This document shows positions 501-60,971 of a stretch of 64,000 nt of DNA, one piece after another; within the stretch, counting starts at the first letter, position 1; every line of letters begins with the position of its first letter. A program made the position numbers and the translations under genes. Below the pieces are notes generated by a model. It saw nothing but the letters and a program-made list of their open reading frames with translations. It made no database searches and was not told the DNA's origin. The DNA comes from Perkinsus olseni. Its lineage: Eukaryota; Perkinsozoa; Perkinsida; Perkinsidae. The stretch is taken from positions 310,001 to 374,000 of the forward strand of contig JABANP010000001.1 in assembly GCA_013115135.1 (NCBI GenBank), in the 5' to 3' direction.

Positions 501-1051
501 TCACTCATCCTGTTCCTCGCACCATTGTTCAATAGCTGTAGCGAGCTCTTCAGCGGTTTGGGGCGTGAAGGGTTTGGTGCAGAAATGATCGAAGTTGTGG
601 GCCCAGCTTTGGGATTTGAGATCTTCGACACGGCCGGCGGAACAGCAGACCAACATAACGTTCCTGAGGGGAGCAAGCGGGATTCGAACCCACGACCTTC
701 CGCATGGGAATACCGAGCTAGTTCCTCGTTGCCCATCATCGTTCGGATCCTCTCGGCAGCTTCAGCGCCGCCCATCTTTGGGGGCATGTTGAGATCTAGA
801 AGGACGATTACCGGGTCGTCTACATCGTCACTCTCCTGCAGCTCCAACTGAGAGAACAGAATCGCGAGTAGGTCGATTTATGGTAGGACTGCTACGACGT
901 TATCGATGGCATCTTCTCCGCAGTTCACTCGACTGATCCGATCCTCATCAAAACCATGACAAGTTAGGCTCATCTCGGCCACGTCGAGATTGTCGTCCTC
1001 GTCATCAGCCAGCACCAAGTCCACGGCCTCAACTCCCGAGAAAGTGGGCAT
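501..1051 (-). CDS. Stand-alone response-regulator receiver (CheY-like) protein
   Basis: Three exons (1051-899, 847-714, 663-501) give about 149 residues, almost exactly one receiver domain. Visible landmarks are the acidic pocket (ADDEDDN near residue 17), the phospho-acceptor Asp in LLDLNMPP on strand 3, the small-residue position in VCCSAG after strand 4, and the conserved Lys in CTKPF on strand 5. Such domains accept a phosphate from a histidine kinase. There is no output domain and no kinase in this window, so the partner is unknown. ATG 1051 is the Met directly before the domain; an upstream in-frame extension looks like leader. The second intron (664-713) carries a tRNA T-arm; removing it restores a clean strand 4. 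Short receiver-only proteins occur in protists, but I cannot say which pathway uses this one. Confidence 0.85.
664..713 (-). other. 50-nt intron containing a sense tRNA T-arm
   Basis: On the minus strand the intron runs from gtattccc to ctcag. Its 3' half is ggtcgtgggttcgaatcccg (plus positions 677-697 hold the motif), a T-stem/T-loop with a full B-box. The flanking exons join as ...NEELA-R-NVMLVCC..., which continues the receiver fold, so the intron call does not depend on the motif. Confidence 0.8.
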
Positions 1052-1292
1052 GATAAATAATCTCTGGCCGTAAATTGCTACCTGCTGCGTAGCTATCATT
1101 CCAAACCCATTGCCAAGTCGGTTGGGAAGCAGATTCACAGCAACCGTAAGATACCTTGAACGTGTCAAGAGCGTTAGGAAATTGCAAGATTGCAAGATGG
1201 ACAGAAGTCTTTCCTTTTGCGCGTGATCGATTTCGCTATAGCTTTTCCCCCTGTCTTGGTCTTCCTTTACGGAGAAGTCATCAACTGCAGCG

Positions 1293-1852
1293 ATGCCGTC
1301 TTACAACCGTTTCGTGGAGCCTGGCCGCTTCTGCACCGTCACCTACGGTCCCGATGAGGGCAAGCAATGCACCATCGTGGACGTCATCGACCACCGAAGG
1401 GTCGTCGTTGACGGACCTAAGAACGTCACCGGTAATAATCGCAGGGAAACTCAGGATGGATGGTGATTGCTGAATGTGAATTTGGAATGGTGTGGTATCA
1501 GGTGTCGGTCGCCAGCAGATCCCTCTCCGCTGGTTGGCTCTCTCCGATTTCGTCGTCCCCAACACTTTCCGTGGTGCTCACGGCCCCACCGTAGCCAAGG
1601 GTCTTAAGGAGGGTGATGTCCTTGCCAAGTTCAACGCCACTAGATTCGCTCGCAGGCGTGTCGCCCGCAAGAACAAGCTCGCGTAAGTATCTTTAGGTCG
1701 CGCTGGCATTTCGTAAATGCACGCCCCAACCGGAGCATTGTTCTCTTTCTTTCAGTCTTACCGACTTCGAGCGTTTCAAGGTTATGGTTGCCAAGAAGCG
1801 CATCGGTCAGGCTATGCGTGCCTCCATCAACAAGATCCGCAAGCAGCACTAA
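1293..1852 (+). CDS. RPL14: 60S ribosomal protein eL14
   Basis: Three exons (1293-1431, 1502-1682, 1756-1852) encode 138 residues. The N-terminal half is the KOW/SH3-like eL14 fold (RFVEPGRFCTVTYGP, then IVDVIDHRRVVVDGP), and the C-terminal half has the family signature LTDFERFKVMVAKK. Introns are 70 and 73 nt with GT-AG ends, phases 1 and 2. It is a structural protein of the large ribosomal subunit. Codon choice is rich in C-ending codons, as expected for a highly expressed gene. Length matches lower-eukaryote eL14 proteins. Confidence 0.95.
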
Positions 1853-2229
1853 TCGGTGTATGATGCTGATGCTCCCACCATTCACCTTGTTGTTGATCGT
1901 ATTAGCACCACTGTGGATGATGACGACGACTGAGGCTGTATGATGATGACCAGGCTGCATATTATAATGAGTTGCGTTTCACGTGATGGGGAAGTATCGG
2001 AAATATCTTAGGTTGGTTCTGGTAAGATGCAAAATAGGTGAAGCTGGAGACTAATGTTTGGGCTCACCAGAAGTTATTCATGCTGGGGCCCAAGATACAC
2101 ACGCATAGCGCGAGCTAGGACAGGGCTTACGACGTTAGACATCTGAATTTTCAATCATGAACCGTCCGTCCTGACTGTAATCGGTTTGGTTATTGTTCTT
2201 CTCCTTTCGCAGCAGTGGTTGTAGTAATA

Positions 2230-4610
<2,381 letters not shown>

Positions 4611-5325
4611 TGTCCAGTAGACAATTATCGCAGCATGACCATCATCATTACGAACTCGTAGACTATTCTGGTGAGCCGCCGCCATCCGACACATCTTGCT
4701 CTTCCTTACTCTCTAGCAGTCATCTGTACCTTTTATTATCATGTCGTCGTCATAATCCTCGTCGTCGGGCTGTGCTGGTCTCATCCACTGATCATGTAAT
4801 CGATCGTCTGGGCGCGCGCTTTTGTGGCTGCCGTCGTTGTATTATCATCATCATAATTATACCGGCTTCGTAGTGAGCGGAGAATCGTTGTGGAGGCATA
4901 AGTTACCTTGCAAGCGTTTGTCGACGGTGTTGGTAATTTTGTGGCGCGTGACGAAGTCCAGGCTCTTAGCGTGCTGCGAGACGCTGGACGTGCATTGTCT
5001 CTCTTCTCCTGTTTTCTACTTGTATAAAAGATTTTGCACTCGATCCATGGTCACGGTAAGATCAGCTACTACTACTTCGGTGATTGTGATGATGATGTTC
5101 TTGGTTGCGGATCGTCGTTGTTTCGATCATCATCGTGAAGCAGTGGTCGGAGGAAGCACTTGTCATCATCATCATTATTATCATCGACGCCTACTAGCCT
5201 CTCATCATTCCCGCAGAATAGTTGGTAATAATAATAACAACAGCAGCACCATCAACCATTATACTGATTTCTCCTTGGCGTTGAGTTCAAATTGAGGATT
5301 ACTCGGAGGAAGCGTTGCCATCGTA
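4611..5325. other. Non-coding stretch between PP1 and the EF-hand gene
   Basis: Long open frames here are His/Ser-rich readings of repeated catcatcat and cgtcgt runs and show no domain or splice logic. I see PP1 3' flank, short trinucleotide runs and then the 5' leader of the next gene. Confidence 0.5.
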
Positions 5326-6303
5326 ATGTCTGAGGCCTCGGGCGAAGCGAAAAATCGACAGTCCGTCGACCCCGATGGTTGAACAGGAAGAGACCGGGGA
5401 TCGAACCTCTGCGGGCGAAGACGCAGACAAATCACGCAAAGACACTCAAGAAGAGAAAGAGGAGTTGACAGAAGCCGAGAGAACGATTATCGAGCTGGAG
5501 GGTCTCGGGGTAGGGGATACGGAAAACGTCCAATATCGTATCAGAGTGAGCAGGTCAAGTTCCCGACAGTCTCCGAGCTCGGCTACGACTTCTCCCTTCA
5601 GGAAGCTCATGGCATTTGTGAGAAAGTAAGGCAGCAATAATTTCCCTCAAGTTACGATTGGTGGCCTCATTGGAGTCGGTCCCCGCAGGATATCGCTGAA
5701 CTCGCCCGGGAATTCCAAACCGTCAATGTCGTTGGCGACGGCGTGATAACTTCAATAGAGGCTCGAGCTGCATTCAACCGGTGAGCGGCATGCTTGCAAG
5801 AATTCTGCTGATTTCTGTCGTCAGGGCGGGTGGGTCGAGCAGTGACGACGAGTTTGCTGATGTATTGACGAAATCTATTTTCATGTCGATTACGATCCTT
5901 CCCTAGGCACTCAATCAGGCTGACCCGTCCGGCAAAGGGCTACTGAATTTCCAGGACTTCATGAGGTGGGCACCCGTCGATTAAGCAGCTGTGAGGGGTC
6001 TGTGGTATCAGGCTCGTATCCTTATTGAGAAGAAGCGTCATAACAGAGCAAGAGGTTATTGAAGCCTTCAAGATCTTCGACAGAGATGGTTGTGGCAAGA
6101 TAGATGCAGCTGAGCTCATCAACGTGATGACGTCGATGGGAGACGCGTTGACCGAAGAAGAGGCGGACGGGATGATTCGACAGGCCGATGCAACGGCCAC
6201 CGGTGAGGTTATCATCTCTGTTGTTTCCCGAGTATGATCGGCTTTGCCATCAGGGACGGTGGACTACCACATTTTCGCCAAATCAGTTCTGCACATGTTA
6301 TGA
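5326..6303 (+). CDS. Centrin/calmodulin-like four-EF-hand protein
   Basis: Eight exons fit one frame: 5326-5377, 5427-5509, 5554-5625, 5689-5780, 5825-5861, 5907-5965, 6012-6202, 6254-6303, about 212 residues. After a charged N-terminus (MSEASGEAKNRQSVDPD) come four EF-hand units in the usual spacing: a degenerate first loop (VVGDGVITSIEA), a second with DPSGKGLLNFQDF, a canonical third (DRDGCGKIDAAE) and a weak fourth (DATATGTVDYHIF). Only the third loop has a full set of calcium ligands; loops 1, 2 and 4 lack key acidic residues, notably Glu at position 12. The order and the long N-terminus resemble centrins (basal body or contractile fibres), but a calmodulin-like role cannot be excluded. 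The start at 5326 is preferred because it lets the 49-nt intron at 5378 be spliced in phase. Confidence 0.85.
5378..5426 (+). other. 49-nt intron containing an antisense tRNA T-arm
   Basis: The intron begins gttgaacagg and ends gacgcag. Between them ggggatcgaacctctgcg is the reverse complement of a T-arm (ggttcgatcccc). Splicing joins codon GA.. of the first exon in phase to DKSRKDTQEEK, and gives exactly 28 codons in the next exon. Confidence 0.65.
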
Positions 6304-6370
6304 TAGTAGTTGTACTTCATCAAGCGTTGCGTTGAAAGTCCTCACTTAACTAACCCAACGCCACTCACAG

Positions 6371-8024: not shown

Positions 8025-10695
8025 TCAGGACCCAGGAGAGAAGGTCACTCCCAAGGTGCCATGACCGATGCTGCCGCCGCCGCCCTCAGCGTCCCGTATG
8101 CTGTCAGGGTAGTCAACAGACTTCTTAAGTAAAGTCACTGAAGTTGACGAGGAGGAGAGTGTACGTTGCCGAAGAATCGTAGAGGCAACTGCGCCACTTT
8201 GAGTTGGGGTAGTCGATTCATTCTCAACATACATGGTTGTCTCGGAAGGAGGGGGCCTGACGCGCACAGGTCGATCGTCAGCTCGTAACCCGCACTCCTA
8301 CTACTACTACCCGAGATCCCCAGACAAATGCATCACGCTCGACTCGAAGCCAACAGCGCTGAGGTCAGTCGTGTAGGCCCGCCGACGATTCCCATTTCGA
8401 TCTGCGGGAAGTGTGGTACACCCTTCCCTCGAGTGGGCCTACGGTGGTGGTGATGGCGATGTGCGCGGCCGTTCCGCATTGAAGCCGGAATGAACTCCGG
8501 GGTGGTCAGAAGTCCCCCTTCAGGGCCGACAGCGTCTAGTGGGTCTGGTCTCCTAAGGAGGGAAGCTCCGAGGAGACCGATCCGAACACAGTCCTATCGG
8601 ACATGAGACGAGAGTGACAGGTGAATCGACGGAGCGAAGGCATGCTGGCGACCGCCACGTGACACAACTTCTACAACCACTCACCTGCCAGCTCGACTGT
8701 AATACCGTCGTCTGTCTGTAGCGTTCACGCGTATGTTAGTTGAGGGCCAGTTGCTAGGCTCGGGATAGGTAAGATACTGCTGCTGCTGCAGGTCGCCGCT
8801 GCAGGAGGCTTCGCAAGCGCGGACTGGGGTTACCGCGCTCGTCTCTGGAGTCACGGGAGAGAAAATGTCCTTCAAAGTCTCATCGCAGCTCCGATCACGA
8901 TGAACGTAAGTTGTGTTGCTCAGATAGTCTTGCTGGTGATGATGGTGATGGAATGTGGCCCGGCTGCCGCCATCGTTGATGACTATCGGACGATAGCCCT
9001 CCGGCATGTCAATGACGGGGGAGTTGTGGTAGTGTTCCACATTTGCTTCGAAGCCTACGATAGAGCTGCTGGCCCGGCGTGATGGTCACACCTTGGCAGA
9101 CCCACCTTGCACGCGAGCCCAACAAACTTGCAACCTCTTGACGTTCCACGCATCACCCAATTGAGACAGGCACACGTCTGAGGGACATCACAATCATCAT
9201 CATCAGCAGCAGTGGTGGTGGTGGTGGTGGTGATTATCACCAACCCACAGTCCTGGCCGCCTTACCGTTAAGTCTATTGTAAAACTCATCAACATACTCC
9301 GGCCTCCGTAAATTGACGAAGGCGTACCCGAGGTTGTTGCCCGAGGAGAAATCCAGAGGGGCATAGAAAAAGTCGATCTTGGACCTGAGCAGGAGGGGAC
9401 AGACTCCCCAGCGAAGCAGCCGAGGCGTTACTGAAATCCCAGTGTGAAGAGGGCGTCCAGAACCCTCGACTGTCCCATGGAGTAAGGGATGTTACGGAGC
9501 ATGACGGTAGAGCGAACATCTGAGGGCGGTTGGGGCTATCACGGCAGCTAACCTAGTAGCTTCCAACGCACACATACCGGCCGGTGTGGATTCGTTGGCG
9601 TTGGAAATTTTGTTGTAGTTGCTAGAGAGCCCATTGGCCGGCCGGGCGGCGGCGCCCAGGTTGAGGCCACGGGATGAACGGCGGTTGCTGTAGTCGTGGT
9701 TGAAGCTGCCCTGCCTCCGGCCCGGAGTGTACATCAGCGTTGGAGCTGTGCTTCTATTGTCGGCCTTGAAGGAGGAGCCCCCTGAGAAACAAGAAAGTGG
9801 TGGGCACCTTTGTTAGGTTGAGGACGCGATAGCAGTGAAAGAGTGTCCCTACCAACCGCGAACTCGAGTACCACATTTCGCCGAATAATTGGGCCCGAAT
9901 TACTATTCCCTTCGCTAGAGAGATCAGTTTCACAAGGGCACATCGCGGAGTTGAACAAGTGCTCGACTGTGGGGGCAATTTCACTCAAGTTGATGTTGGC
10001 CGTAAAGACATCCGTAGCAACTCCCACTGGGGCAGTAGATGCTAGGTAAACGGTGTGGGTTCCTCAAACGTCTCACGTCCTTTCCTTGGTGATCTTCTTC
10101 GCTTAGTAAGCTGGTAGTCGTGTTTCCCCTCAGCTGCATCGTCGGCCGTTCCTCCACAAACCATCGTTCCGTGACCTTCTTCGAGATCTGAGAGGGGCTT
10201 CTCAATTGCCGTATCAAGCAGCCAATGTCGGTCATTCGCCTCTTCTTTCTCACCATTAAACTCAGGATCGGTGGAGCCCTGGTGTTGGGCAAGTTCACAG
10301 ACTCCGGCCTTCATGGCCGCAGGGCAGCTCCGCTCCCGTCTGTACGTCACATTGCCTTGCAACGACTTGCGTACTCGGGACACCGTCCGAAGCAGGCAGG
10401 TCGACTCAGGCACGCATTCGGCATCGTCAGCATCATCATCCACAGCAAAGTCCGGCGGGTTCCCTTCCTCCTCGGAATCAGCGTCGATGACTCCCTTCAC
10501 CGGGTCCAGGAGGCGAAGAGAGATGAACGTATTCTTGAACTCAAGGGTGCCCACGCCATCTCGCCAGGAACTCGGGCTGACAACCCTCTTCTCGTCCAAG
10601 CCACCAGCGTCGCACCTCTCGCCGTTGGTGTGGATGCCTCCCACTCGGGGATCATCGACAAGAGAGGGGCTAAGGGGGTCCCCTTGAGGGTACAT
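8025..10695 (-). CDS. Mei2-like RNA-binding protein (C-terminal RRM_2 domain)
   Basis: The start is ATG 10695 and the last exon is 8256-8025, joined through a 428-nt intron (8684-8257) that completes an Arg codon. The N-terminal 200 residues are acidic and low-complexity. The C-terminal third carries the Mei2-type RRM: STVMLRNIPYSMG, then KIDFFYAPLDFSSGNNLGYAFVNLRRPE, then DAWNVKRLQVCWARVQG, then a tail with MPEGYRPIVI, the usual order in Mei2/AML proteins. His- and Gln-runs follow the domain. In yeast and plants the family controls meiosis by binding RNA; the role here is inferred from the domain only. A 35-nt splice is needed near 10040-10075 to keep the frame, shorter than other introns here, so that junction is tentative. 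Confidence 0.8.
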
Positions 10696-10977
10696 AACGA
10701 GTATAGGGAACGCTTCTTGTCACTTGATAATAGTCGGCGGCGTCTTGTGATATTGTGAAAAATGTGATATTATATCAAGCACGCCCAACAACTGTTCTTC
10801 GCCGCCGGCAAGCAGGGAAACTCTGAGAATGGACGGAAAGTAGGAAAGAGAGGGTGACTCCGCAGTCGGACCAGTGTCACTAACGCAAAGCGATTGGGGA
10901 CAAGGAGAGGTGAAATGCTGATCGAAGACATAAAATAAAATCTGCGGCGGTAAAGCATAAAAGCAGCAAATAGTAGT

Positions 10978-18345: not shown

Positions 18346-18359
18346 TCCAATTGACAGAC

Positions 18360-18384
18360 GTTGGGATCGAACCGGGGTCGATAG
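18360..18384 (-). repeat. tRNA T-arm just upstream of the PC4-protein start
   Basis: The minus strand reads accccggttcgatcccaacg, a complete B-box and T-stem, ending about 14 bases before ATG 18345. It may lie in the leader or in an unrecognised 5' intron beginning at gtactatcg. Confidence 0.55.
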
Positions 18385-19875: not shown

Positions 19876-21422
19876 TTAGCCAAACCTTTCTCCCACTGAA
19901 GAAGGATTCGGCTCCGTGACGAGACGAGACGGCGGATTCCAGCCAGGTTCAATTCCCGCACCCTGCACTTTTATCACCTTCATTCCCTGCGACTTTAAGT
20001 AAGCCAGTACATCATTGAGGGCTGCCTGAGTTATCGCGTCGAGCCCACCAGCAGCCACCGACGTTCCCGCGCTGGGCTGTGTGCTTCGCTCCGCCTCCTT
20101 TTCCTCCGCCGATTTTTGCTTCTCTTCTGCATCTGCCATCTCCACATCACCTCCCTCCTCTTTCCCCTCCCCTCCTTCACGCGGATCCCCCTCCTCCTCT
20201 TTTGTCTTCGTCCCCATCTCATCCTTGCTTTCCTCACCACCGCCCTCTTGCTCCGCAGTCGTCCCTCCGGCAGCCTTCTCAGACGTCACCTTCTCAGAGG
20301 CCAGACTGAAACCAACACACCTAGCCAGTCAACGACTGGACGGTGGCATCGACCCTCTACAACGGATTGCGCCTCGGTCGTCTATCCAAGCGATGAGTTA
20401 CCTGAGCAGGCAGGCCGCCACCTCTCCCCTTTTGCTGAAGAAGTCCGCTAGGAGCCATGTACCAACCAATCGCTGGCCGAGGTTCAAAAGCGGAATGCTC
20501 AGGCCACGCTTTGTGAGAACTGTCAGAGCCATGAATCTGGAGGTAGAAGCGACACTTCTGGGATTCGAACCCACGACCATTCGATTCTCTAAACTGAAGA
20601 CTGCAGCAGTGCGTGACCTGTGCAATTGATCACAGTCCAGAGTCTCCGCAGTAGCCGTCGAAACGTCAGCACAGCCAGATATCTTCTGTGCGATAGCCGA
20701 GGCCCCGCTCGAAGGCACTGGTCGCCGCGTTGTGCCCTGCTCCCGCTGTTGCTGCTGGAGAGTGGCAGCAGTCTGCTGATGTTGCTGACCAGTAACCATC
20801 CTGACGGACAAGAAGGATTCCTTCTGCCGTACCGACGTCTATACTCGACGAGAAGATCTACTTCCCAAACCGTATTCCGGGGAGGCCGGAGTTGACTAGT
20901 TTGCCACTTACCGTTGTTGTTGCAATTGCCGCAACTGTGCCAGCCTGAGGGCTTCGGCGCTCCGATCAACCTGACGATGGAGAATACTTGAAACTGATGA
21001 TAATGCAGACGGGGCATCACCTGTGCCGGCGCTTGCTCTACGTGAGTGGTGGTGTAGGCCTCTTCCGGCACCTTCGCGCCGGCCTTGGCCGCTACCTGTC
21101 ATAGATCAATGGTGCGAGGGTGGACGGGTCCTATCCGCACCTTCAAAACATCTGAACAGTATTCCTCGAACTTCTCTCTATCCCTGACGAAGAGGCCGCT
21201 GGAGAAGTCAGACCAGGCCGACAGGAACTGCGCGGCAAAGGCCGTATTGAGAGGAGGTAGGGGAGGCCGAGACTGGGACGGTTGGGCCGATCCTGACGGG
21301 GGCTCGGCTGTTACCTCCTCTCTTCGACGCCCTCACTCACCGGTCTGTGTAGAGCCATTCACCGGCGCTGAGGGAGCGGTCGGTGACGATGAGGACCCTG
21401 CGGATGCAGGGGCGGGATTCAT
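19876..21422 (-). CDS. Gln- and Glu-rich protein of unknown function
   Basis: It starts MNPAPASAGSSSSPTAPSAP. A Pro-rich linker leads to an ordered stretch (FAAQFLSAWSDFSSGLFVRD, then REKFEEYCSDVLK), a short coil (DRSAEALRLAQLRQLQQQR), a Gln-rich segment, a hydrophobic block (FMALTVLTKRGLSIPLLN), a long Glu/Lys/Gly run, and an Ala-rich helix (ITQAALNDVLAYLKSQGMKV). It resembles components of transcription or chromatin complexes in composition only. Two segments derived from tRNA T-arms (20537-20617 and 19896-19961) are bounded by GT-AG but are also multiples of three without stops, so they may be introns or exonised insertions. Confidence 0.5.
19896..19961 (-). other. In-frame 66-nt candidate intron with antisense T-arm
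   Basis: The minus strand reads gtgcgggaattgaacctggc at the 5' end and ends cttcttcag. The first 20 bases are the reverse complement of a slightly decayed T-arm. It is open in frame (reads ...GAGIEPGWNPP...), so splicing and translation through are both possible. Confidence 0.45.
20537..20617 (-). other. In-frame 81-nt candidate intron with sense T-arm
   Basis: The minus strand runs from gtcacgcactg to ctacctccag and contains ggtcgtgggttcgaatccca. Splicing joins HR to FMALTV in phase. Read through, it is also open for 27 codons. Confidence 0.5.
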
Positions 21423-22372: not shown

Positions 22373-22407
<35 letters not shown>

Positions 22408-40123: not shown

Positions 40124-42588
40124 TGTCAGCGACTGCAGGGAAGTTCGCCTCGTCAGGGCTAACGGCTGCAGGAGGATTCGGGACGTTACAGAAGCAATGG
40201 TTGCTATATATGGGCCTGCCGTGGTGAGTTACTATGACAGGGCTTTTCGGGTATTTCATGGCTGTGATGTCTAAGATATTCTCATGGTGGTGCTCTTCGA
40301 TTGATGTTGGTCGACTGGTCGGCCTGGTTTTCCACTTATGCGTTGTTATTGTGGAAGGCTGTCATCTGTTCAGGGCAGTAGGAGGCATGCAAGCGATGGT
40401 CTATGTCTTCGTAGCGACACAGCCAGTGTTAATGATATCGGTGTGCACACTAGAGACGGCGAGGCTGGGATGTCGACCGCATCCGATTGACGAGTGCCCA
40501 ACAGACCCTTCCCTCTATGAGTTTGCTGGCGATATCTACAAGTCTGTCGTCAGCGAATTTGGGCTCGCCTGTGAGAACAGGTAGGATGATTATCGCCACC
40601 TTGTCGTATTGGTCATTGTTGTTGCAGCTCATGGGCTGTGGCTTTGCAGTCCGAGCTCTTCTTCGGCTTCCTCGTGGGCGTATGGGCCATTGGTTGGATG
40701 GGTGACCGCTTCGGTCGTAAACCAGCGTTGTGGCTCAGCGTCATCACCACGCAGCTCTTCGGCCTCCTGTCGTTTGTTGCTCCAACATATCTTGCGTAAG
40801 TCCCTTCTTCGGCGTCCTTCGCATGACTCGTCGTTGTCCAGATATGCAATCTCGAGGCTAGGGGTTGGGCTGGGTATCGGTGGTCTGGGTCTTTCCAGCT
40901 ACGTCCTAGCGACAGAGGTCACAGCTCCGGAGTGGCGTAGTCTAGTGTGCGTAGTGACCAGCTCCATATTTGCTCTTGGTAGTACGGGATTGTGATGGGG
41001 ACCAAGGCCAACCTCACTCATTCATATATCTAATCCCTTGGTTTCACAGCTTAGTGGCAGGGCGGGTTCTGTCTATTCATATCGCTGACTTTCATTGATA
41101 TGAATTACAACGGTGCTCCCTCTTGAAAATGATTACCGAGCAGCGAGTTGAATACGCCAAGCTTCTGAGGTGTCGCCTGAAATCAGGTATCGTAGCGGTA
41201 TCCAGTCTAGCGGCTATACCCAACATCCACTGGCGGATGCTGTCATTCGGCGTAGGTCATCTCCGTTTCATTCGATGCAGGCTGATATACAGGCCTTTAG
41301 GTGTGGATGCTGAGCTGGGCATGTGTGCTCCCGGCCCTCCTTTTAACTCAATTTTTGGAATCCCCTGTGTGGCTCGAAGCGCGAGGTCGTCACGCTGAAG
41401 CCGAGGCGGGTTTGCGCAAGATCGCCTTCGTCAACAACCGACAGGCTCAATTTGATTCTTTTTTGAAGAAGTGGGATGATCAGTAAGAGGGGAGTTGGGC
41501 GTTTTTCGAGCGGCTGGGGCAGTTTTGTCATCAGACACATGCCGGACGGTGATTTTTCGATAGAAGATGGTGACAAGAAAGACTCTTTGCCGGCGTCAAC
41601 GAAGGAGGATGATAGTTTGTGGGGTCTTTTGGTGACGAAGAGATGGAACATAATACAGGAATTCATGGCTGTGATGGTGGCCGCATGGTAAGCGAGCGGT
41701 CTAGAGAGCCGTAGGCCGTGAGCTCGAACCCGGCAGGTTCGCCTCGAGCCTCGGCTATTACGGATTGTCGATGAATGTCGGAAACCTCGGTGGATCTATT
41801 TATCTGAACTCTATACTCAACGCTTTGGTAAGAGGGCCAATAAGCTGCGTAGCATCAGCCAGTCGAGCCATACTAGTGGCCTCCTCCCATGAGACGTATC
41901 CTTCCAGGTTGAGATACCTTCCTACGGTATGATGTACTTCATGGTTGACAATGCCATCACCGGCAGGAAGCTCACTCTGTAGGCTGATCGTCTCCCACCT
42001 CACTCGGATGTGCCTGATATCAGGACCATATATCTTCTAGCAGGGGGCATTGCTTGTGTCATTGGCCCTCTATTCACCTGGCTCCATTGGCTTTCTCTCA
42101 CCATTGCCCTCCTCGGCAAGTTCTTCGTCTCTGCTGCCTTCGGAGTATGCTATATGTAGGTCTCTCCGCTCCCTTCCTTCTTGCCACACCGTCGACACTT
42201 CACCCTTAGTTACGGTTCAGAGCTATTTCCCACAAGCATCCGCAGCTCCGCGTTGGGCATCCAATCCCTAGCGGCTCGTATTGCTGGCATCATCTCGCCA
42301 CTCGTGCCACCCCTTGGCGAGGTCTGGTCGCCTCTACCGAATCTAGTAAGTCGGCTGCTGTCCCGGCTCGGTGCCAACGGTTACTCTGTACTTGCTCAGA
42401 TATTTGGAATACCTTGTATCGTCGCAGCTGTCTTTATTCTGCGTCTCTTACCGGAAACACTCGGGCGGAGCCTTCCGATGACAGTGGAAGATGTCCGGGC
42501 CCTCCGGCAATACTCGGTGGGCAGTGCCGAGCCTCCCCGCCCAGGACACGGGCAGACCGGCAAATACGAGATGCCTCTTGATGAGTGA
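40124..42588 (+). CDS. Major-facilitator transporter (organic-cation/SV2-like, SLC22 type)
   Basis: About ten exons join in phase. A long first extracellular loop (DECPTDPSLYEFAG) ends in FGLACENSSW. Then come the MFS motif GWMGDRFGRKPALW between helices 2 and 3, helices 4-6 (LGIGGLGLSSYVLATEV), a PESPxWL-like motif (LESPVWLEARGRHAEAEAGL), a large central loop, helices 7-12 (MVAACLGYYGLSMNVGNLGG, VEIPSYGMMYF) and YGSELFPTSIRSSALGIQSL. This is the order of SLC22/SV2 carriers of small organic ions; the substrate cannot be told. The intron 41688-41748 carries a tRNA-like sequence. Start ATG 40124 gives a short cytosolic N-terminus. Confidence 0.88.
41688..41748 (+). other. 61-nt intron that is largely tRNA-like
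   Basis: It runs from gtaagcgagcggtctagag (A-box-like) through gtgagctcgaacccggc (B-box-like) to gcctcgag. Splicing gives MVAAC-LGYYGLSMN in phase, as MFS proteins require. The T-loop core is near-palindromic, so orientation is ambiguous. Confidence 0.7.
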
Positions 42589-45147: not shown

Positions 45148-45165
45148 GCGCTGCTTTACTTAACC

Positions 45166-45185
45166 GGATCGAACCGGTTCGATCC
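45166..45185. repeat. Perfect 20-bp palindrome of two head-to-head T-arm halves
   Basis: The sequence is ggatcgaaccggttcgatcc. Each half is the T-loop core seen in the T-arm introns. Confidence 0.9.
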
Positions 45186-47860: not shown

Positions 47861-50648
47861 ATGAACATGCGCACGGCATCGCACCTGCTGCTGCTGCAGC
47901 TGCTCTTACTGGCGTTTGCCGTGAATGTGCATGCCTGGTCAATACCATGGTTCGGAGGAAAGAAGGTAATTACATTCTCGCCGTGGTCTCCGCGGCATCT
48001 ACGGCTGGAGTTACTACACCCTCTTCAATCTCAGAAAGTGCTGGGGGAGGTGGCAGAGTTGGATGAGACGTCCTTGGACGAGCTGCTCGCTACCGAGTCT
48101 ATCAGTGCTGTCCTCTTCTATGCCCCTTGGAGTCCCTACTCGCAGCAGGTCCTATTCATCGAGAGGCCTCTGCGTTGCTCAGCTGCTCATCCTCGATCAG
48201 GCCCTACCAATGTGGCAGGTTGTGGCAGAGAAGTTGGCCCTGAGCAATCCTCCCATCCCAGTAGGGCAAATCGATGCCGCCAAGTACCCTGAGGTAAGAT
48301 TATGGGTCATGGACTTCCCTCTTGGTACGCTGAAAAATGGGTTCAAGCTCGAGTGGGCTTCATCACATGAGTGTTGGTGGGGTCTTGAAGCGTTGCCACT
48401 TAAACAGGTTCGCGTGAAGCACGAGATCATCGCCAACCCGACGATCAAGCTGTTCATTGACGAGGAGGCATTCGAGTTCCCTCTGCAAGAGGAGAGGACG
48501 TGGGATATTCTCTATAGTGGTGAAGACTGAGCTCTTCGTCTTAGGTGGGCCAACGCGGTGAACTGGATCAACGAGCGGACCAATAGGGAGCAAGTGGTGA
48601 CCAATACCGAAGAGATGGATGCCTTCTTGGATGAGAACCCCCTGGCTGTCATCGGCCTCTTCATGTCCGAGCGAGACTCACAGATGTACTACAATAGCCT
48701 GGTCTCCCGCTTTCCTCTTCACCTTCCAATCGAGGAGCTCAGCCTTTCCTTCTTCTAGTCGCTAATAAGCTCGGGTTCGGGCTCGATCGTACCTGCACGC
48801 CTATGGATGCAGGTTCAAGAAGACTTCACGCCACTTTGATGACGTTTCCTTCGCCGTCACGTACGGCAGCAACTCCCGAGAGATGGCCCAATACTTAGTC
48901 AAGCTCGGGTACTACTACCCCTCCGCAGAAGTCTATGGACCGCGAATTCTCTCCTGTGTAGGAAGATCGCGGACACTCCCACTCGGTTCCCAACTTTAGT
49001 GATGCTTTACCAGCACGACGAGAAGGCCGCTGTCTATGACGGCGATATGGGTGACTATCATAAAGTAGGAGGCCAAAGAAGACCTGATGAGAAGGTTATC
49101 TGTCTCCGTCAGGTTGATCAGTTCATCCTTTCCCGTCGAGTACCAATGGTAACGGAGTTCTCCGCTGAGACTGCCGACCAGGTAAAATGCAGACTGCTGG
49201 GATCGAACCCGCGACCATCTGCAGTAGCGTGCCTGTTATGTAGATCTTCTCGAGTGGTATGCCTACGATATTCCTCTTCCGCGACCCCGGGTCTGAGGTA
49301 GGGTCAGCAGGCTGAGGCTGCACTAAGAGAGGCCAGCACAACCCTCAGAGGTAATCACCGGGTGGCTGTGCAAAAACATCGTCTGGGAAGTCGCCGCTGA
49401 AACCATAGCGACTCTTGAGTGATGTCAGAGATGCATCTCACCACAACGCATAGGAACAGGAATCCGCAAATAGTCGTTAGTCGAAGAAACATACACTCAA
49501 GCGACTTCACTTAGCACCTCGGACAACTCTGTTGACCAGTACACAGTAGATGCAACAGTTCGAACTGAGCAGGCAAGTTTAAGCTCCCTCTCAGGCTCCA
49601 TCGTCTTCGCTCTCGCTAGTGATAAGAACGAGCCCATCCAGCAGCAGCTGTTCCATGAGTTGGCACTTGAGAACGTAAGTCCAGTCGACCCTCTCAGCCT
49701 ACAATATCCAACGTTATCAGTTGGAGCCATCGGATTTCCCCACTACGCGTTTGGTGTATCGCTCGACGCGTTCTCATCAACATCGCCAATACATGGACGT
49801 GAAGGCTCGAAAGTACCGCATAGATGCCGGCTACGGCGCTCGAGCATGCCCCCCAGGTGAGGGTCCCATCATGCTGCTGCCATACAGTAAAAGTTGTTCT
49901 CTCGCAGTCACCTCTCCCGACCACTACAGATCATTCGTGTATCAATATTCCAAGGGGATGATCAAGGCCTACCAGCGTTCAGAGCCCCTTCCTGTATACT
50001 ATGGCAACGAGCCCGTTGTACAGGTAGGCCGTGTCTCGCTCCTGCCGAATGTGATCCTGAGCCCTCAGGCGGTCGGCAGCAACTTCCAAGAACTTGTCCT
50101 GAATTCACCGCAAGACGTCCTTGTCGACTTTTACGCGCCCTGGTGCGGTCATTGCAGGAAGTTCGAGCCCATCTATCAGTCCCTCGGGGAAAGTCTGAAG
50201 CCCCTGAGGAATACGTAGCATCTCTGCACCGCCTTGGACGCGGCCCCAACTGCCTCTCAGGTTGCGAATCGTTAAGATCGATGCGACCCAGAATGAAGTC
50301 CCTGTACAGATCACTGGTTTCCCTACGATTCTCCTCTACCCCGCTGGTAAGTCCTCTCGCCCTTCTCTCACCCCTGTACGCCTACTGGCCCTTCCCAGGC
50401 AAGAAGGATACGCCGGTAGAGTTCCGTCAGCAGCGAACGGTCCCCGTCTTGACGAAGTAGGTCTGGGGCCCCCTCTCAGCTTAGCTGATTGCTGCTGTCC
50501 TCAGGTTCCTTAAGGCTCACTGCACTAACCCTCTCACTCTTTCTCAAGAGGACCCCAACGCTCGGTGGCAGGTGAGGCAAAGTCTGATCATCTCTTTGTA
50601 AATGCCCATCTCAATCTCTTTCAGGGACTCAGCCCCGATGAGCTGTAA
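47861..50648 (+). CDS. Protein disulfide isomerase-family protein, ER lumen
   Basis: A signal peptide (MNMRTASHLLLLQLLLLAFA) and a C-terminal SPDEL, a KDEL-like retrieval signal, place it in the ER. The first thioredoxin domain has FYAPWSPYSQQ, so the active site has lost both Cys. The middle b-type domains include DSQMFKKTSRHFDDVSFAVT and VFALASDKNEPIQQ. The last thioredoxin domain is active-type: DVLVDFYAPWCGHCRKFEPI followed by VPVQITGFPTILLYPAG. Expected role: disulfide formation and shuffling in new secretory proteins, with one redox-active site. The intron 49182-49243 carries a T-arm. One +1 frame break sits at GGG 49301-49303. Exons between 49683 and 49860 are not fully resolved. Confidence 0.9.
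49182..49243 (+). other. 62-nt intron containing an antisense tRNA T-arm
   Basis: It runs from gtaaaatgcag to gttatgtag. Between them ctgggatcgaacccgcgacc is the reverse complement of ggtcgcgggttcgatcccag. The exons join as ETADQ-IFSSGMPTIFLF. Confidence 0.8.
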
Positions 50649-54218: not shown

Positions 54219-54815
54219 TCACCTAAAACCGAAAAGGATGATGATGATATGACCGAACCCCATACCCACACTATTACCATGGCCGAGGGCGCTAAAGTAT
54301 CCGTTGGTATCTGTTCTTGCCTCGGTTGTGGCTGCCAGCTGCCAATCACGGTGGCTGCTGCTGTTGTTGTCGTTACTCCATCCATAGTTACCAGTCCGAC
54401 TGCCTTCCCCTGTCGAGTTGTACGTATCACCATCTTGAGCCACACTGCCGCTACTGCTGTCCACCGCTCCCTTCTCCTCCTCTTCCTCATCCTCAGCACT
54501 CCCTCGTGAATAGAGGAGCACCGCCAAGGCCAGGAAGAACATGGAGGGAGGTGTGTTGAGGATACCCCCGGCAGCAGCACTGTAAGGCCCCTCCCGACCC
54601 AATCGCCCGACTGACGTCCCATCCAAGGCATCCATTGCTGGACCATCATCAGCAATAGATGAGATCAGTGCGATCGCTGGGTCAGCCTCCACGCCTAACC
54701 ACCCGGAAGCCGGGGCCACGGCGAGTAGGAGAGTTAGGAAGACCAAAGCGAAGCAAAGAGAAGATCCTCGTTTTCGACTACCACCAAAAATTATTTTGGA
54801 TGGCGCACCGGACAT
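54219..54815 (-). CDS. Small secretory-pathway membrane protein, unknown function
   Basis: Single exon, 198 residues. The start MSGAPSKIIFGG is followed by a hydrophobic signal (LCFALVFLTLLLAVAPASG). A short lumenal part, a helix after PPSMFFLALAVLLYSRG, and an acidic run (EDEEEEEKGA) follow, then a Ser/Asn/Gly-rich tail and a hydrophobic end (GFGHIIIILFGF). The terminal hydrophobic stretch could be a GPI-attachment signal, consistent with the PIG-B gene in this window (inference). Confidence 0.5.
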   Translation of the reverse strand: MSGAPSKIIFGGSRKRGSSLCFALVFLTLLLAVAPASGWLGVEADPAIALISSIADDGPAMDALDGTSVGRLGREGPYSAAAGGILNTPPSMFFLALAVLLYSRGSAEDEEEEEKGAVDSSSGSVAQDGDTYNSTGEGSRTGNYGWSNDNNSSSHRDWQLAATTEARTDTNGYFSALGHGNSVGMGFGHIIIILFGFR

Positions 54816-55532
54816 TTGCGGGGGAACTGTTAAAAATCGAGCTGAAGGCCTATAAAGATCGAAGTATCTTGACTTGATGCGCGCAAGATAGAGAATAAGT
54901 CAAGTTCATCGTTGAATTCCGCGTCGCATTCATAGCTTTGCACATGCAGCGTCCTCTCCTCATCCGCTAACTGTGTAGCTCATGCTCGACGAACATATGC
55001 TAAATGAACATCTCCTACAGCTCGTACGTCAATTTCCCATGCGACCAGCGCGAGAATAATCCACCGAGGGGATGCGGTCTCCCGTCCATGACGGCAGGGA
55101 GAGCTGTGACGTTCACTGGGCGCGCGCTTTTTCTTTTTCCCGGTGCTCCGGTGCTCACGAAGGGAAGCTTTCACTACGAGCTTTGGTTCTCTGTAAATAC
55201 TCGTGAGACGAGGGGTCGTTAAGGTGAATAGTCGCCGGTAGCACTACTTCCAGTCTTCCTCGTGCTGCATGGACTAGAAGAAAAGTGCACGCAACCGGGA
55301 AGATCGTGTGCGATGAGCAAGCTGTGGTACGACTTGTTCTAGTGGTAGAGCGTCGATATGGAGTTCCGAAGGTCGTGGGTTCGATCCATGAGAGGTCCAT
55401 TTTCAAATAGGTCGAGACATACACCCAGTCAAGAACGGCCTTGATCAGCTCCGTCCAAGTCCGGTTGGGGAAGTCCTCGAGTTAGCGTACCGTGCCCCCG
55501 TTCAGTTCCCCCTTCTCGTTGAATCCCTACCA
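54816..55532. other. Intergenic stretch between divergent genes
   Basis: It separates the minus-strand membrane protein from the plus-strand decarboxylase, so both promoters may lie here. It holds the tRNA-like sequence 55328-55398. Confidence 0.5.
55328..55398 (+). other. tRNA-like element with A-box and B-box
   Basis: Its length (71) is that of a tRNA. The D-arm ttctagtggtagagcg is excellent and the T-loop gtgggttcgatcc is good. The anticodon stem pairs only partly (loop atggagt), the T-stem 3' side (catga) is broken, and the acceptor ends (tacgact, gaggtcc) pair poorly. It is best called a tRNA pseudogene or the head of a tRNA-derived SINE. Confidence 0.6.
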
Positions 55533-58500
55533 ATGCCAGAAGACCTGTCACCCGCCCCCACCCCTGCAGAGGAAACCGACCTGGATATCCTCACCAGAGT
55601 GAATGCAATGTTAGAAAGTACTACCATCTTGTAGGGAGCCTGGAGTCAGCGTCGCCGCCGTCCCTGAAATCGTCGAAGCAATAAGAGCATCTCTAGTGTG
55701 TCATGTTGTGGCTCCTGCAGACTACGTCGCGTCCCTTGATGACCGGCATCATAAGGTTGTCCAATTCAAGAGCCCCGAGGAGATCTCCAGGATATTTTCT
55801 GAAAAAGCCTGTGATCTCTCCCTTAAGGATGGTGAGCCGACTGGACGAAGAACGTATGCTTGGAATCATTGCGGTACAGGTCAGCCTGCTGGCGAGGAAC
55901 GAATCCTGAAGGCCTGTGAGGCTACTCTGGCGCTCTCTGTGAGGACCGGGCACCCTCATTTTTTCAACCAGCTCATTGGCCGTGCTGATGTTACTGGTAG
56001 TACTTGGGAATTCATTCCGTAAGGGCGTGGGTTCGATCCCTGGTCTGGATTACCTATCTTTTGCATCTACGTCATAATTCTACGTTGCCTCTCGAGGCTA
56101 TACCCTCTGCGATCTTGTGGGGCCGTTACCTTTCAATACCTCTGAGTTCCCTCGTCAAACTCGTGGACTTACCGAGCTGGCATTCCAGTTTGGGAACGTG
56201 AGCAGCCCTAAAGCCGTTGGTATCACCATCTCATTGAGAGGCCTCTTGAGCAGGTATCGCCGGTGAAACGCTCGTCGCCGCTACCAACGGTTCGGCATAT
56301 ACGTACGAGGTGGCACCGGTGTTCTTGCTCGTCGAGCAGGAGGTCATGAATAAGACCTTCGACCTGGTGGGGTTCAGTCGAGATACCGCCGAAGGTGAGT
56401 CCATCCTAAATGCTCTGTGCGCCGCGAGGGCACTGCCACCGGACTCCTGTCGTCCGCTGCCCCCTATGAGAATCGAGGCTTGTGTTGCCCAGGCCTCACC
56501 GTGCCAGGAGGTTCAATCTCCAACCTCTATGCGCTCCAGACTGCGAGATACTATAAATTCCCCAAGGTTAAAACCGAGGGCATCTTTGCTATTGGAGGCC
56601 AACCTGTTGCGTAGGACTGTTCCCGTCTCATTGAAGTCGAGTGTTGTCAGTACCTTCCCAGGTACTGCTCGGCAGGAGCTCACTATTCCTACACGAAGGC
56701 GGCTCTAGTGGTCGGGCTAGGGTCCAATAATATGGTTGAGGTAGTACCAAGCAGACGGGGAAGCTGTTGTGGCGTTCGGAGTGGCCTCCTGTACTAGTTT
56801 GAAACGGTTGCTGTCCCGCGCCAGGAGGCTAGATCCTCGAGAGGCCTTGAGTAGGTCGTAGTAGCCGCTTCCATACTGCGTTCGGGTGACCTTCCTTCGT
56901 CGTGTTATCATGCTCGTATTAGATACCGATGGACTCTCGAGGCCGCATGCGGGCTGATCTTCTCGAGGAGAGAGTGGCAGAGGACCTGGCGGCCGGCAAG
57001 AAGCCCTTCTTCGTTGGCGCCACTGCTGGCACTACTGTCATGGGTGAGGGGCAATAGCTCGCCACAATCGCTATTCTCTCATAGGTTCCCTGTTCTCGCT
57101 CCGCCTCGGGAACAGCAGTGCTCTGTGGAGGTTTCTATGCTTCTTTTCAGGGGCTTTTGACGACGTCGAAGCCCTTCGGGAGGTTTGCGATAAATTCGGC
57201 TTGTGGTTGCATGTCGATGGCGCCTGGGGTAGTACAAGATTGCCTGACCCGCACCGCTCCGCTAAGGCGAAATGTTTTTTTCCGTCGTAGGTGGGGCCGT
57301 ATTGTTGTCACCGAAGTACAAGAAGGCTCTGCTGTCGGGTGTTGATAAGGCCGATTCATTCTGCTGGAACCCCCATAAAATGGTAGCCTCGCGTCCTTAC
57401 TATCGCCCGTACCGTCTGGTTAGGTGGGAGCTCCGCTCCAGTGCAGTATATTCACGCACAACAAGGGCCATGGGCTGGTAGGTGGTGAGGCACAGTAACG
57501 TTCCTGGATCTTGCTGTCCTGCTAGCTGCAAGCCTGCAATGGTACTTGCGCGAATTACCTCTTCCAGAAGGACAAGAATTACGCTTCCTATGATAAGGGA
57601 GACTGGACCATACAGTGTAATACCAGCGCCCGGGCGTGGGGTTGTCGTCGATTCATGTCACCTCAGGCGGACGGAAGCCCGATGCTTTCAAGACGTGGTT
57701 GGCTTGGAAGAGGCTCGGTGACGATGGCATCAGGCGCAGGGTTGAATACGGTACTGAGGAGAGGTCGTGACGGTGGTTCTGATGGTGCTGATGTTCAGGC
57801 ATCGAGCTGGCGAGATATGCCGCTGGTGAAATTAAGAAGTCGTCTGCGGAGTCTAGTCGGTTCGCTGGTAAATTCGTACTGTATCGAGACCCTGAGTACG
57901 CTAACGTGTGCTTCTGGTGAGTTGATGGGAAGAGGATACAGGGTTTCATGGGGGCATCGCAGGATGAATACTGAATGGAAAATCCCAAATGTTCATACCA
58001 AATTTTGGTGAACGAGCAGAATAATAAATGAGACAGCAGCATACGAACGTTAACAATATACCGACGACTCAGTGAATTGACCTATCACCACCCCCTATGT
58101 GAAGAAGTGAGACCTTGATGGTGGAGTGAAGGCGTTTGTGGTGGTGCAGGCTTTCCGTATTACCCTCGGACCGTTGGGTTACGACAGATTCCTTTGTGGT
58201 TGAAGATTTGCTGGGGGAGCTCGCTGCTACTCTCGTTGATGTTTAGGTATCTTCCGCCCTCTCTTTCCCACTTGGAGCCGTTAGAAGGCCTCAATGACGA
58301 GGACGCTGCTAAATTGACGAAGGTGAGAAATTCGAGCTTGATGAGAGGATACGGTGGAAGCTTTCAGGTTACACCTTACATCAAGGACAAGATGCAACGC
58401 GAGGGCCTTGCTTTAATCACTTTCACAGGACCCTACAACTTTTTCCGGTACTATTGAAATGCCGTCGGTGGGATTCGAACCCGGGTCTTCTCAGATGGAC

Positions 58501-58593
58501 CTTCACCTCCCCACGAATGTCCGCTACGATGACGTCGACATAGTGCTGAACGACATCGATCGTATTGGCCGGGATTTCGTGTACTCTGATTAG
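55533..58593 (+). CDS. PLP-dependent decarboxylase, glutamate/cysteine-sulfinate type
   Basis: About 15 small exons give the group II decarboxylase order: KVVQFKSPEEI, SVRTGHPHFFNQL, ATNGSAYTYEVAPVFLLVEQ, GGSISNLYALQTARYYKFP, AHYSYTKAALVVGLGSNN, FFVGATAGTTVMGAFDDVEA, the cofactor Asp in LWLHVDGAWGG, and the PLP lysine in FCWNPHKM. Then come VGAPLQCSIFTHNKG, GRKPDAFKTWLAWKRLG, YANVCFW, ITFTGPYNFFR and DVDIVLNDIDRIGRD. Substrate could be glutamate, aspartate or cysteine sulfinate. Two introns carry T-arms (55997-56253 and 58448-58494). The last junction appears one base short for the conserved C-terminus. Confidence 0.9.
55997..56253 (+). other. 257-nt intron with a sense tRNA T-arm near its 5' end
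   Basis: It runs from gtagtacttg to ttgagcag. The T-arm is gggcgtgggttcgatccctg at about 56023-56043. The exons join as DVT-G-IAGETLVAATNG in phase 1. Confidence 0.7.
58448..58494 (+). other. 47-nt intron containing an antisense tRNA T-arm
   Basis: It runs from gtactattg to cttctcag with ggtgggattcgaacccgggt between them, the reverse complement of a near-perfect T-arm. The exons on each side are conserved (TFTGPYNFFR and DVDIVLNDIDR), but the join is one base short for the conserved downstream frame. Confidence 0.7.
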
Positions 58594-59051
58594 TTTACAA
58601 CGCCGAGGCCTTCCGTGTCGGTTGTCCCCCTATTCGGATTTTTCCTCAAGAGTCACTGTAACACACCTCCTCTGTGTTCCACCCGTTACTAAGGGTCATT
58701 AAGACGTTTCTGTACATCTCGCGTTGCGGTCTTTTGAGTTCACGTATGTTCAATTCAGCTGTGATGGTGATATGAGGCGATTGTGTCGGACTTCTGTCGT
58801 CGCACAACTCCAGTGACGTGCACTAGCCTGCGATCTATCTGCTTTGCGTTGCTGTTAGAGTGAGATCGGTAAATTCTTTACCTTGTTCGTACTGATTGCA
58901 TACGGGCGAACTGCGTCCTGAGACTGCATCCAGCGGAGGTGGGCGGGAAACGCAACCGCCATCTCATGCGAGCTACGCGTCGGGAAGAACTCGGCCGGGT
59001 TAGCTCGGTGGTCACTTGCCCTCTCTGTGTCAGTGAGGACTCTTTCCGCTA
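58594..59051. other. Intergenic stretch, about 460 bases
   Basis: It lies between two plus-strand genes. No feature recognised. Confidence 0.5.
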
Positions 59052-60971
59052 ATGGGTGCTTATCTATCGGCTCCCAAAACAGCCAAGGTGATGCTGCGGC
59101 CTCCGTTCCGTCGCCACTGGAAGTATTGCTGTTAGGAGTCGTCTGACGGCGGAGGAAGCTTCCATTCTTGGGGGTGCTCCGAGATGCAGGGGTGGCGTAC
59201 GGAGATGGAAGATGCTCATATAGCGATCAGCGACCTGCAGGGTAGTTGGGCCGCGTCCGCTAACGGAAGCGTCGAGCTTCGCCCATCTCTGTAGGGCAGA
59301 ATGAGGGAGTCGCCATGTTTGGCGTGTATGACGGCCACGGAGGCTGCGAGGTTGCCAAGTTCGTTCAAAATCACCTTCCTGAGGAAGTAGTTGAGGCGGT
59401 CACGCTAGCAGTTTCTGAGACGTCTGCTGCTGCCGCCCCAGATGTCTAATGGAAGGTCGGATGCGATCACCAGTGGCGACATGTTAGTGGAAGGGTATCA
59501 CAAAATGGACGAGCTGCTCCGTGCCTCGCAGTACGCGGAAGAGCTCGCCGGGTATCGTCGAGCGGGCAGCAGCAATGGTGCCGGCGGTAGTGATGGTAGA
59601 CCGCTTGTTACTGTGGGAATGGGAACGACCTCAGGGAAGTCGAGGTTCGTGTCGCTCCTGCAGAGTTCTATTGAGCAAGATCTTGCCGAGCTGCGCGATA
59701 GGAGGGCGGTGTCTCGGCAGGACACGGCACCAGTGAGAAGGGTGCTAGAGATAGTGCTGTGGGTTCGATGCTTGGAGGCAGGTTATGATGAAGATGTTTG
59801 TTTTGAAGAAGTTGGAAGCATCAGAAGCAGCGGCTGCTGCTGATGCATCATCGGCCGCCGAGACTCCTCCCCCGCGTCATAATCCATCAGGGAGATCTTG
59901 CCGGAGCTGATGAGTAGAGGTAGCTGGGACGTGGCGTTGATGACGGCGCTCTTCCTCAGTGGGAGCCAGAGCAGTGGCTCGGAGAGTACCACTACGGAGG
60001 GTCGAGCAGCACTGGTAAGGAGCGCCCTGACGACGTCGCGAAGGGCATTCTGGTTCAGTTTGGCTCCCCTTCCAGTGGGGTTTTGAATGTCGGCTGTACT
60101 GCAGTCACTGCACTTCTCACTAAGACCCATCTCGTAGTTGCTAACGCAGGAGACTCGAGGGCAATTCTATGTGAGTGCATCATCACCGCAGTTGTGGTAG
60201 CAGAGGGTCATCAATAACGAGCAGCAGGTAGAGGTGGACGTGTCGTAGAGCTTTCCCACGATCATAAACCCAACTCGGATGAGGAGAAGAGGCGGATAGA
60301 GGCCGCTGGCGGATACGTCGAAGAGATCACTCTAACGTCCAAGTATGCTGTTGCCATCGCTGCGTCGTGCGATCTTGCTGCTGCTATCGCTGCGTCGTGT
60401 TCTTATGATCAGAACACAGTACCGTGTGAACGGTAACCTGAACTTATCCCGGGCAATAGGAGATCATGAATATAAGAAGAGAGATGATCTCAAACCAGAG
60501 CAGCAGATTATATGCAGCACGCCCGATATAATTGTCGAGAAGTGAGCGGTCATCATCGTCATTACTAGTGCTCATGTTGTGAATAGAATCTTCTCTGTTT
60601 TCAGACTCACTCCGGAGGACGAGTTTTTTGTCTTGGCCTGTGATGGCGTTTGGGATGTACTCTATTCTATGCTGTTGGAAGGTGGTCATTACTGTGTTTA
60701 TGTCAGGTGATGAGTAACGAAGATGTTATCGAATTCATCCGCCCGCGTATCGCTAATGGTCAGAAGAAGCTTTCGGAAATAGTAGAAGAGCTGTTGGATC
60801 ATTGCATGGCTGATGGTAGGCGGCTTCTCAAGGGGGCTCTATATTGATTCATTTTTAGATCCAAAATTGTCAGAGGGCATAGGAGGAGACAACATGACTT
60901 GTATCCTCGTGAAGTTAGATCATGATGAGCTATCGTCAACCTCAGCATCTCCTGCATCTCGCAGGGTTTAG
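59052..60971 (+). CDS. PP2C-family protein phosphatase (PPM)
   Basis: It starts [19 protein letters not shown]; the Gly-2 start suits N-myristoylation. Then [38 protein letters not shown] with the metal-binding Asp and Gly, a Ser/Gly/Ala-rich insert, [109 protein letters not shown] and [15 protein letters not shown]. All PPM metal-ligand motifs are present. Introns are mostly 43-75 nt and in phase; exons between 59782 and 60060 are not fully settled. The 49-nt intron 59733-59781 has a partial T-arm. Confidence 0.92.
59733..59781 (+). other. 49-nt intron with a partial T-arm
   Basis: It runs from gtgagaaggg to ggaggcag with gtgctgtgggttcgatgctt inside. The B-box matches to gggttcga but then diverges, so it may be an older copy. 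Confidence 0.5.

Follow-up and report, generated by a model that had tools for sequence, protein, structure and literature searches.

The origin of new introns is an open question, and a stretch of DNA from the shellfish parasite Perkinsus olseni raises it in a specific form: can a sequence that looks like the 3' end of a transfer RNA (tRNA) gene supply an intron? The window analysed here, 64,000 nt long, is C1:310001-374000 of a 61.5-Mb assembly in 968 contigs. It carries repeated copies of an element of about 35 bp that contains the B-box word GGTTCGANNCC and ends in a run of T, and the element sequence is common to several introns of unrelated genes. A first-pass annotation of the window had regarded such introns as candidate tRNA-derived introners. 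We find T-arm-like sequence in compact introns far beyond chance, together with an excess of the word genome-wide, and we give roughly even odds to an element of about 35 bp, similar to a tRNA 3' end, being a source of introns in both orientations. The label "tRNA-derived introner" is not yet earned, because tRNA descent and mobility remain proposals.

Abundance and extent of the element

Nine exact B-box sites had been counted in the window where about 0.5 would be expected. All nine are present as compared to 0.52 expected, whereas 100 shuffles of the sequence always gave fewer.

680-690, 5397-5407, 18363-18373, 20561-20571 and 30385-30395, minus strand, exact GGTTCGANNCC
36650-36660, 49199-49209 and 58471-58481, minus strand, exact GGTTCGANNCC
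56030-56040, plus strand, exact GGTTCGANNCC

In the whole assembly the word is found 4458 times as opposed to 602 times for the reversed word, which leaves about 3,900 copies above control (exact excess 3856). When one mismatch is allowed, the genome-wide counts are 22142 and, for the reversed word, 14617. The 27 single-mismatch variants together account for an excess of about 3669, which does not surpass that of the exact word and points to a well-kept core.

Information in 40 aligned sites is confined to about -10 to +25, i.e. about 35 conserved bp in the order (A)AGGTC, three bases, B-box, three bases, a variable stretch of six, C, A and the T-run. The conserved parts match tRNA-gene positions 44-48, 52-62, 72 and 73 and the trailer, and the likeness extends from the variable loop to the T-run with the exact spacing of a tRNA 3' end. 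The pattern GGTC-N3-GGTTCGANNCC-N9-CANTT occurs 219 times and not once in the control (0), whereas lengthening the spacing by one base, with GGTC not required, yields 21 as opposed to 2 matches. The 3' block (positions 63-71) is common to different loci above chance, with five identical pairs versus 0.4 and 26 pairs with one difference versus 6.0, counts from which local duplicates are not fully excluded. No clear excess of palindromes or hairpins was detected within this block.

That the tRNA-end match merely reflects chance or base composition is refuted by these controls and is extremely improbable. The B-box is nearly palindromic and some matches reside in predicted exons, both of which would fit a fortuitous motif; the shuffles, the genome-wide surplus over the reversed word and the extended pattern speak against it.

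Gene prediction and sampled regions

The transketolase frame at 34237-36276 shares 98% identity with Perkinsus olseni FOZ61_007920, and the gene that follows it shares 92% with FOZ61_007921. Introns were predicted with a gene finder of our own build that was trained on the sampled sequence (314 kb) and whose first settings were too strict and were replaced; all its introns are predictions. It converged on CAG/GTAAG-like 5' sites and pyrimidine-rich CAG/G sites (the slash marks the splice site) and on introns of about 50 nt. GT..AG ends are imposed by the program, yet they match both introns that are supported by proteins (see below), and its ends differ from those fitting proteins or paralogues at 49182 and 55997. 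Predicted genes include those for receiver-domain, disulfide isomerase, PP2C-like, decarboxylase-like and tRNA-binding-domain proteins, the names PP2C, receiver and decarboxylase being our own reading.

Regions C1b, C1c, C5a and C5b had been picked for their B-box density, and a test with an element profile was therefore limited to the window and C1:1-200000 (264 kb). The profile was trained on 37 sites outside these two regions and applied with a cut-off of 11 and reversed sequence as the control.

Concentration in predicted introns

The profile yields 26 matches in the 264 kb and a single one in the control. Eleven are located in predicted introns, two in coding sequence and 13 elsewhere, corresponding to 0.29, 0.02 and 0.10 matches per kb, respectively. 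Predicted introns make up 14% of this DNA (P=0.0005 for 11 of 26); when only non-coding DNA is considered, 11 of 24 matches fall into them (P=0.014). The share is six of 12 in the window and five of 14 in C1:1-200000. Among the 13 matches elsewhere are two tRNA genes, one reverse strand of another match and the candidate intron at 58448. Exact GGTTCGA[AT][TC]C lies in predicted introns in 21 of 41 cases over all sampled regions, a count in which two palindromic places are doubled and to which some regions chosen for site density contribute. In an unbiased count over 690 intron segments, GGATCGAACC emerged as the top intron-enriched 10-mer (11 introns versus 0.2 expected). Both orientations occur, as had been noted before, with 13 sense and 10 antisense intron rows, one near-palindromic site appearing in both.

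Element-bearing introns of the window

664-713, minus strand, 50-nt intron in a response-regulator receiver gene (predicted 501-1051, minus strand); element in sense orientation, about 664-700
36633-36778, plus strand, 146-nt intron called by the gene finder in a gene with a tRNA-binding domain; element antisense, about 36634-36670
49182-49243, plus strand, 62-nt intron in a protein disulfide isomerase gene; element antisense, about 49183-49219
55997-56253, plus strand, 257-nt intron in a decarboxylase-like gene; element in sense orientation, about 56020-56056
20537-20617, minus strand, 81-nt intron predicted by the gene finder; element in sense orientation, about 20545-20581, profile score 27.7
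19896-19977, minus strand, 82-nt intron predicted by the gene finder in the same gene as 20537-20617; element antisense (GGTTCAATTCC at 19946-19956), about 19936-19972, profile score 25.6
58448-58494, plus strand, candidate 47-nt intron with GT..AG ends; element antisense, about 58455-58491, profile score 35.9

Five introns had originally been presented as fixed by their flanking exons, and four of them are borne out. At 664-713 the receiver-domain frame continues over the splice and the gene finder predicts the intron; the C334 paralogue codes through this site without an intron and has an apparent intron of its own ten codons on. Introns 36633-36778 and 49182-49243 are supported by orthologous proteins that are themselves predicted: five Perkinsus orthologues skip the former (VSGK or VSSK, then GAR.. 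or AS..), and P. marinus protein P0121 skips the latter (..ETADQIFSSGMPTIFLF..), joining ETADQ to IFSSGMPTIFLF. The gene finder chose a longer intron, 49182-49301, at the second site. At 55997-56253 a conserved decarboxylase-like frame is joined over the splice, the gene finder having parsed the stretch differently; the paralogue C734 features the same intron and element, and C106, a diverged copy with stops, has no intron at this site. The fifth intron, 58448-58494, is weaker in that the gene finder did not call it.

A sixth intron, proposed at 5378-5426, is called as an exon by the gene finder and finds no support. The same applies to two supposedly decayed copies of the element at 41688-41748 and 59733-59781, with profile scores of 6.8 and 1.5 that lie below the cut-off; the gene finder nevertheless places introns at 59733-59781 and, shortened, at 41688-41736. 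Conversely, the site at 20561 in predicted intron 20537-20617 and the copy at 19946-19956 had both been missed as intron-borne elements. When paralogues of 664, 36633 and 49182 were sought at the DNA level, the only match was the window. Five pairs from the homologous contigs C8 and C134 were tried and the four that aligned all share the element; the location of the fifth was perhaps misguessed. In the disulfide isomerase gene, the reading frame changes relative to the P. marinus protein at about 49300, just past the exon downstream of the element intron; an assembly error is a possible cause.

Position of the element relative to splice sites

In sense introns the T-run often stands shortly before AG (ATCTTCTCACAG/, CCTTTCAG/). 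In antisense introns it adjoins the 5' splice site (GTAAAATGC), and AG often follows a few bases past the variable loop (GACCTCAG/ in one case). Boundaries were evaluated on a list of 19 introns derived from the 23 intron rows listed at first. It omits C1a 54860-54962, C1b 748-802, 5128-5174 and 10687-10733 and window 59733-59781, among which only 54860 is at least 60 nt long, adds 58448 and 19896, and takes the ends fitting proteins or paralogues for 49182 and 55997. The T-run ends at most 8 nt from a boundary in six of the eight listed element introns of at least 60 nt, as compared to a uniform expectation of 1.7 (P about 0.001). This is support and not proof, given that some boundaries are predicted, that T-runs favour 3' splice sites and that the list was chosen by ourselves.

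The earlier suggestion that the element supplied the intron itself is partly backed by the T-run position and by the one element intron that is absent from the C334 paralogue; it finds no backing in repeats at intron ends, as described below.

Observations that weigh against element-derived introns, and alternative explanations

A number of observations count against introns being supplied by the element, and some concern the introns themselves. The window had been singled out for its sites and is favoured in any count, and 15 of the 26 profile matches lie outside predicted introns. The 37-nt element window comes within 10 nt of both ends in seven of the 19 listed introns; among the other 12, ten have one end at most 10 nt from the element. 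No clear excess of repeats was found directly at predicted intron ends: a combined end repeat of at least 4 is present in 17% of 46 motif introns (all four word classes, see below) versus 13% of 655 others, and one of at least 5 in 2% versus 4%. The left and right blocks of the element are hardly linked (P=0.09 and 0.29), unlike what simple copying would produce. Finally, the paralogue C112 carries an intron at the position of 55997-56253 in which the element is missing.

Others concern the likeness to tRNA. The T-stem pairs 49-65, 50-64 and 51-63 are formed in 36, 52 and 39 of 86 distinct strings, whereas shuffles give means of 41.8, 53.9 and 39.8, and all three outer pairs coexist in three of the 86. 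A-box scores upstream of 49 sites are about the same as those downstream, without any excess. The 7-nt acceptor strand takes 51 distinct forms among 54 tRNA-like sites, for which an exact upstream partner was found in only three tRNA-Ser copies. Descent from intact tRNA genes, implied by the first-pass annotation, is thus not upheld. Most element copies are not tRNA genes: of the 73 exact sites sampled, five were assigned to intronless tRNA genes, and Rfam models, run on 20 of the sampled loci, recover a tRNA at just three, all among these five.

Several more elaborate tRNA-based explanations were rejected. Exact acceptor partners as a general feature do not exceed swapped controls, the tRNA-Ser copies apart; with G-U pairs counted there is a mild excess of nine full matches over 5.3 expected (48 sites). 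For permuted tRNAs there is one exact downstream partner as compared to 0.4 expected, and three cases of acceptor-T-arm minihelices were seen by eye. No full tRNA gene or other Rfam RNA is present in the window at the gathering cut-off, and a lax search returned eight weak matches, including a T-arm-only piece of the transfer-messenger RNA model at 677-694. ARAGORN with introns allowed gave one tRNA-Pro with a 280-nt intron and acceptor mismatches at 668-1036, and in permissive mode 14 genes in the 314 kb, two of them without intron; split or long-intron tRNAs were rejected as an explanation on these grounds. Nor does the B-box appear to act as a branch site, as TCGA is equally frequent on both intron strands and TTCGA occurs 38 versus 25 times.

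It is conceivable that old tRNA pseudogenes or fragments of tRNA-derived short interspersed elements (SINEs) were inserted secondarily into pre-existing introns. A few copies do keep D-arm- or A-box-like sequence (55340-55390, C1:101448 and C5:79553), and the element-free intron of C112 at the 55997 site would be in line with this scenario. We nevertheless deem it improbable: the element fills most of many 45-55-nt introns, the B-box has changed less than would be expected of old relics evolving neutrally, and decayed paired ancestors should have left some covariation where T-stem pairing is at the shuffled level.

A last objection is that three unrelated words are also enriched in introns, namely AGCGGAGCGAAG (B), AATTTCGTGGCGC (C) and GATACCACTCC (D). 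Each is found in both orientations, with word C pointing the same way in seven of eight introns, and the flanks of these words are not conserved. Of 701 predicted introns, 46 contain one of them or GG[TA]TCGANNCC; the word GCGGAGCGAAG is counted 2295 times versus 54 in the control. Single-mismatch copies number 14 versus 9 in the control for word B (19 exact), 8 versus 7 for the 11-mer of word C (16 exact), 6 versus 0 for its 13-mer (13 exact) and 19 versus 12 for word D. These words count against an explanation by tRNA only, and favour one in which the motifs are either introner cores or binding sites. AGCGGAGCGAAG and AATTTCGTGGCGC reside in unrelated short predicted introns of the window, at 31276 and 32778, and also in L021-L022, where seven introns with these words are clustered at C1:127976-130542. 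A predicted intron at C5:117030-117211 (L033:7030-7211) is built from units of about 36 bp repeated in tandem, the majority with word C and inverted AATTTC/GAAATT ends.

The main competing explanation is that the element is a putative DNA-binding site, an extended B-box under selection as in extra-TFIIIC loci, that lies in introns because these are the non-coding DNA of genes; the introns would then not derive from it, and the other enriched words would be sites of other factors. Several features would agree with this. The orientation rows reveal no clear preference, a folding constraint is missing, the core is strict while flanks vary (single-mismatch as compared to exact excess), single-mismatch copies of B and C are few with the exception of the 13-mer of C, and sites also exist outside predicted genes. 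On the other hand, a site of 35 bp would have to arise many times within introns of about 50 nt, the T-run ends at intron boundaries in both orientations, and 3' blocks are common to different loci. Moreover, we know of no requirement of a B-box for GGTC and CATTT at exact tRNA spacing. All in all, we consider a binding site unlikely, though less so than insertion of tRNA relics into existing introns.

A proposed route from tRNA-like sequence to intron

If the element does supply introns, copies with a fixed 3' end and a variable 5' end may have entered genes and been tolerated as introns because they offer usable splice signals in either orientation. In the sense orientation the T-run could serve as a polypyrimidine tract ahead of AG. 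In the antisense orientation it would turn into a run rich in A next to the 5' splice site, with AG usually available a few bases past the variable loop. As the source we would envisage varied tRNA-like sequences in which B-box and terminator persisted while the fold was lost, and not a functional tRNA. Reverse transcription of RNA polymerase III (Pol III) transcripts and insertion as repair patches are possible routes of spread. A more far-reaching version is that the mini-elements, with B-box and terminator-like T-run but no tRNA fold, are mobile and have given rise to thousands of spliceosomal introns in Perkinsus, in both orientations, and that they are just one introner family among several, each with a short, strict core word. 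We put this forward tentatively and consider it less probable than the supply of introns as such.

Further copies and other features

55368-55404, plus strand, element outside predicted genes, repeat D8; profile score 25.9, no tRNA call
18347-18383, minus strand, element with exact B-box in DNA without gene assignment; profile score 23.4
5381-5417, minus strand, exact B-box site called as exon by the gene finder; profile score 17.5
30369-30405, minus strand, exact B-box site in a predicted coding exon; open frame 29875-30645

Upstream of the element at 55368-55404, D-arm-like sequence (TAGTGGTAGAGCG) starts at 55340. A perfect palindrome at 45166-45185 contains two overlapping B-box-like words, GGATCGAACCGGTTCGATCC. 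Among the sampled tRNA genes, multi-copy tRNA-Ile(TAT) and tRNA-Arg(TCT) genes (L034-L053) carry acceptor-stem variants that look compensatory by eye, and some copies are arranged in tandem arrays (C778, C823). The minus strand at 62509-62718 carries a degenerate piece of eukaryotic small-subunit ribosomal RNA (40.1 bits, E 2e-7, below the Rfam cut-off of 50) that overlaps a 29-nt tandem repeat at 62607-62701. A dispersed repeat at 57991-58048 has relatives on C146 (89%) and C357 (84%) over 57 nt, and by eye the likeness is longer.

Relation to known systems and significance

Extra-TFIIIC (ETC) loci are dispersed B-boxes without A-box or tRNA gene. The Perkinsus element shares this description and differs from them in being often intronic and in its extended tRNA 3'-end sequence. 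Similarly, tRNA-derived SINEs are dispersed, multi-copy and equipped with a Pol III-type B-box. The element resembles them in these respects; it differs in showing no A-box excess and in having only about 35 bp in common. Work by Roy et al. in 2023, cited in PMC11453091, is reportedly on dinoflagellate introners.

No paper on tRNA-derived introners or on Perkinsus introners was among the matches listed from the open-licence literature, and the words Perkinsus, SINE and tRNA have zero occurrences in the main text of Gozashti et al. 2022 (PMC9860276). According to that survey, most introner families surveyed so far bear at least one sign of DNA transposition. What the Perkinsus introns have in common with introners as portrayed there is one short, abundant sequence shared by many unrelated introns and, in one case, presence or absence between paralogues. 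They differ in that there is no clear end-repeat excess, that the shared part resembles a tRNA 3' end and that in 12 of the 19 listed introns the similarity, about 35 nt long, leaves a gap of more than 10 nt to one or both splice sites. Amoebophrya, a dinoflagellate relative, likewise has repeated introns; its introner elements have inverted repeats of 8-20 nt, direct repeats of 3-5 nt at their borders and non-canonical splice sites (PMC7789003), whereas the largely predicted introns of Perkinsus have GT..AG ends and a tRNA-like core.

If our reading is true, tRNA-end-like sequence spliced in either orientation would be a source of introns unlike DNA transposition and would explain ready-made, very short introns. 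If protein binding keeps the sites instead, the short introns of this parasite lineage would carry a large hidden layer of DNA signals.

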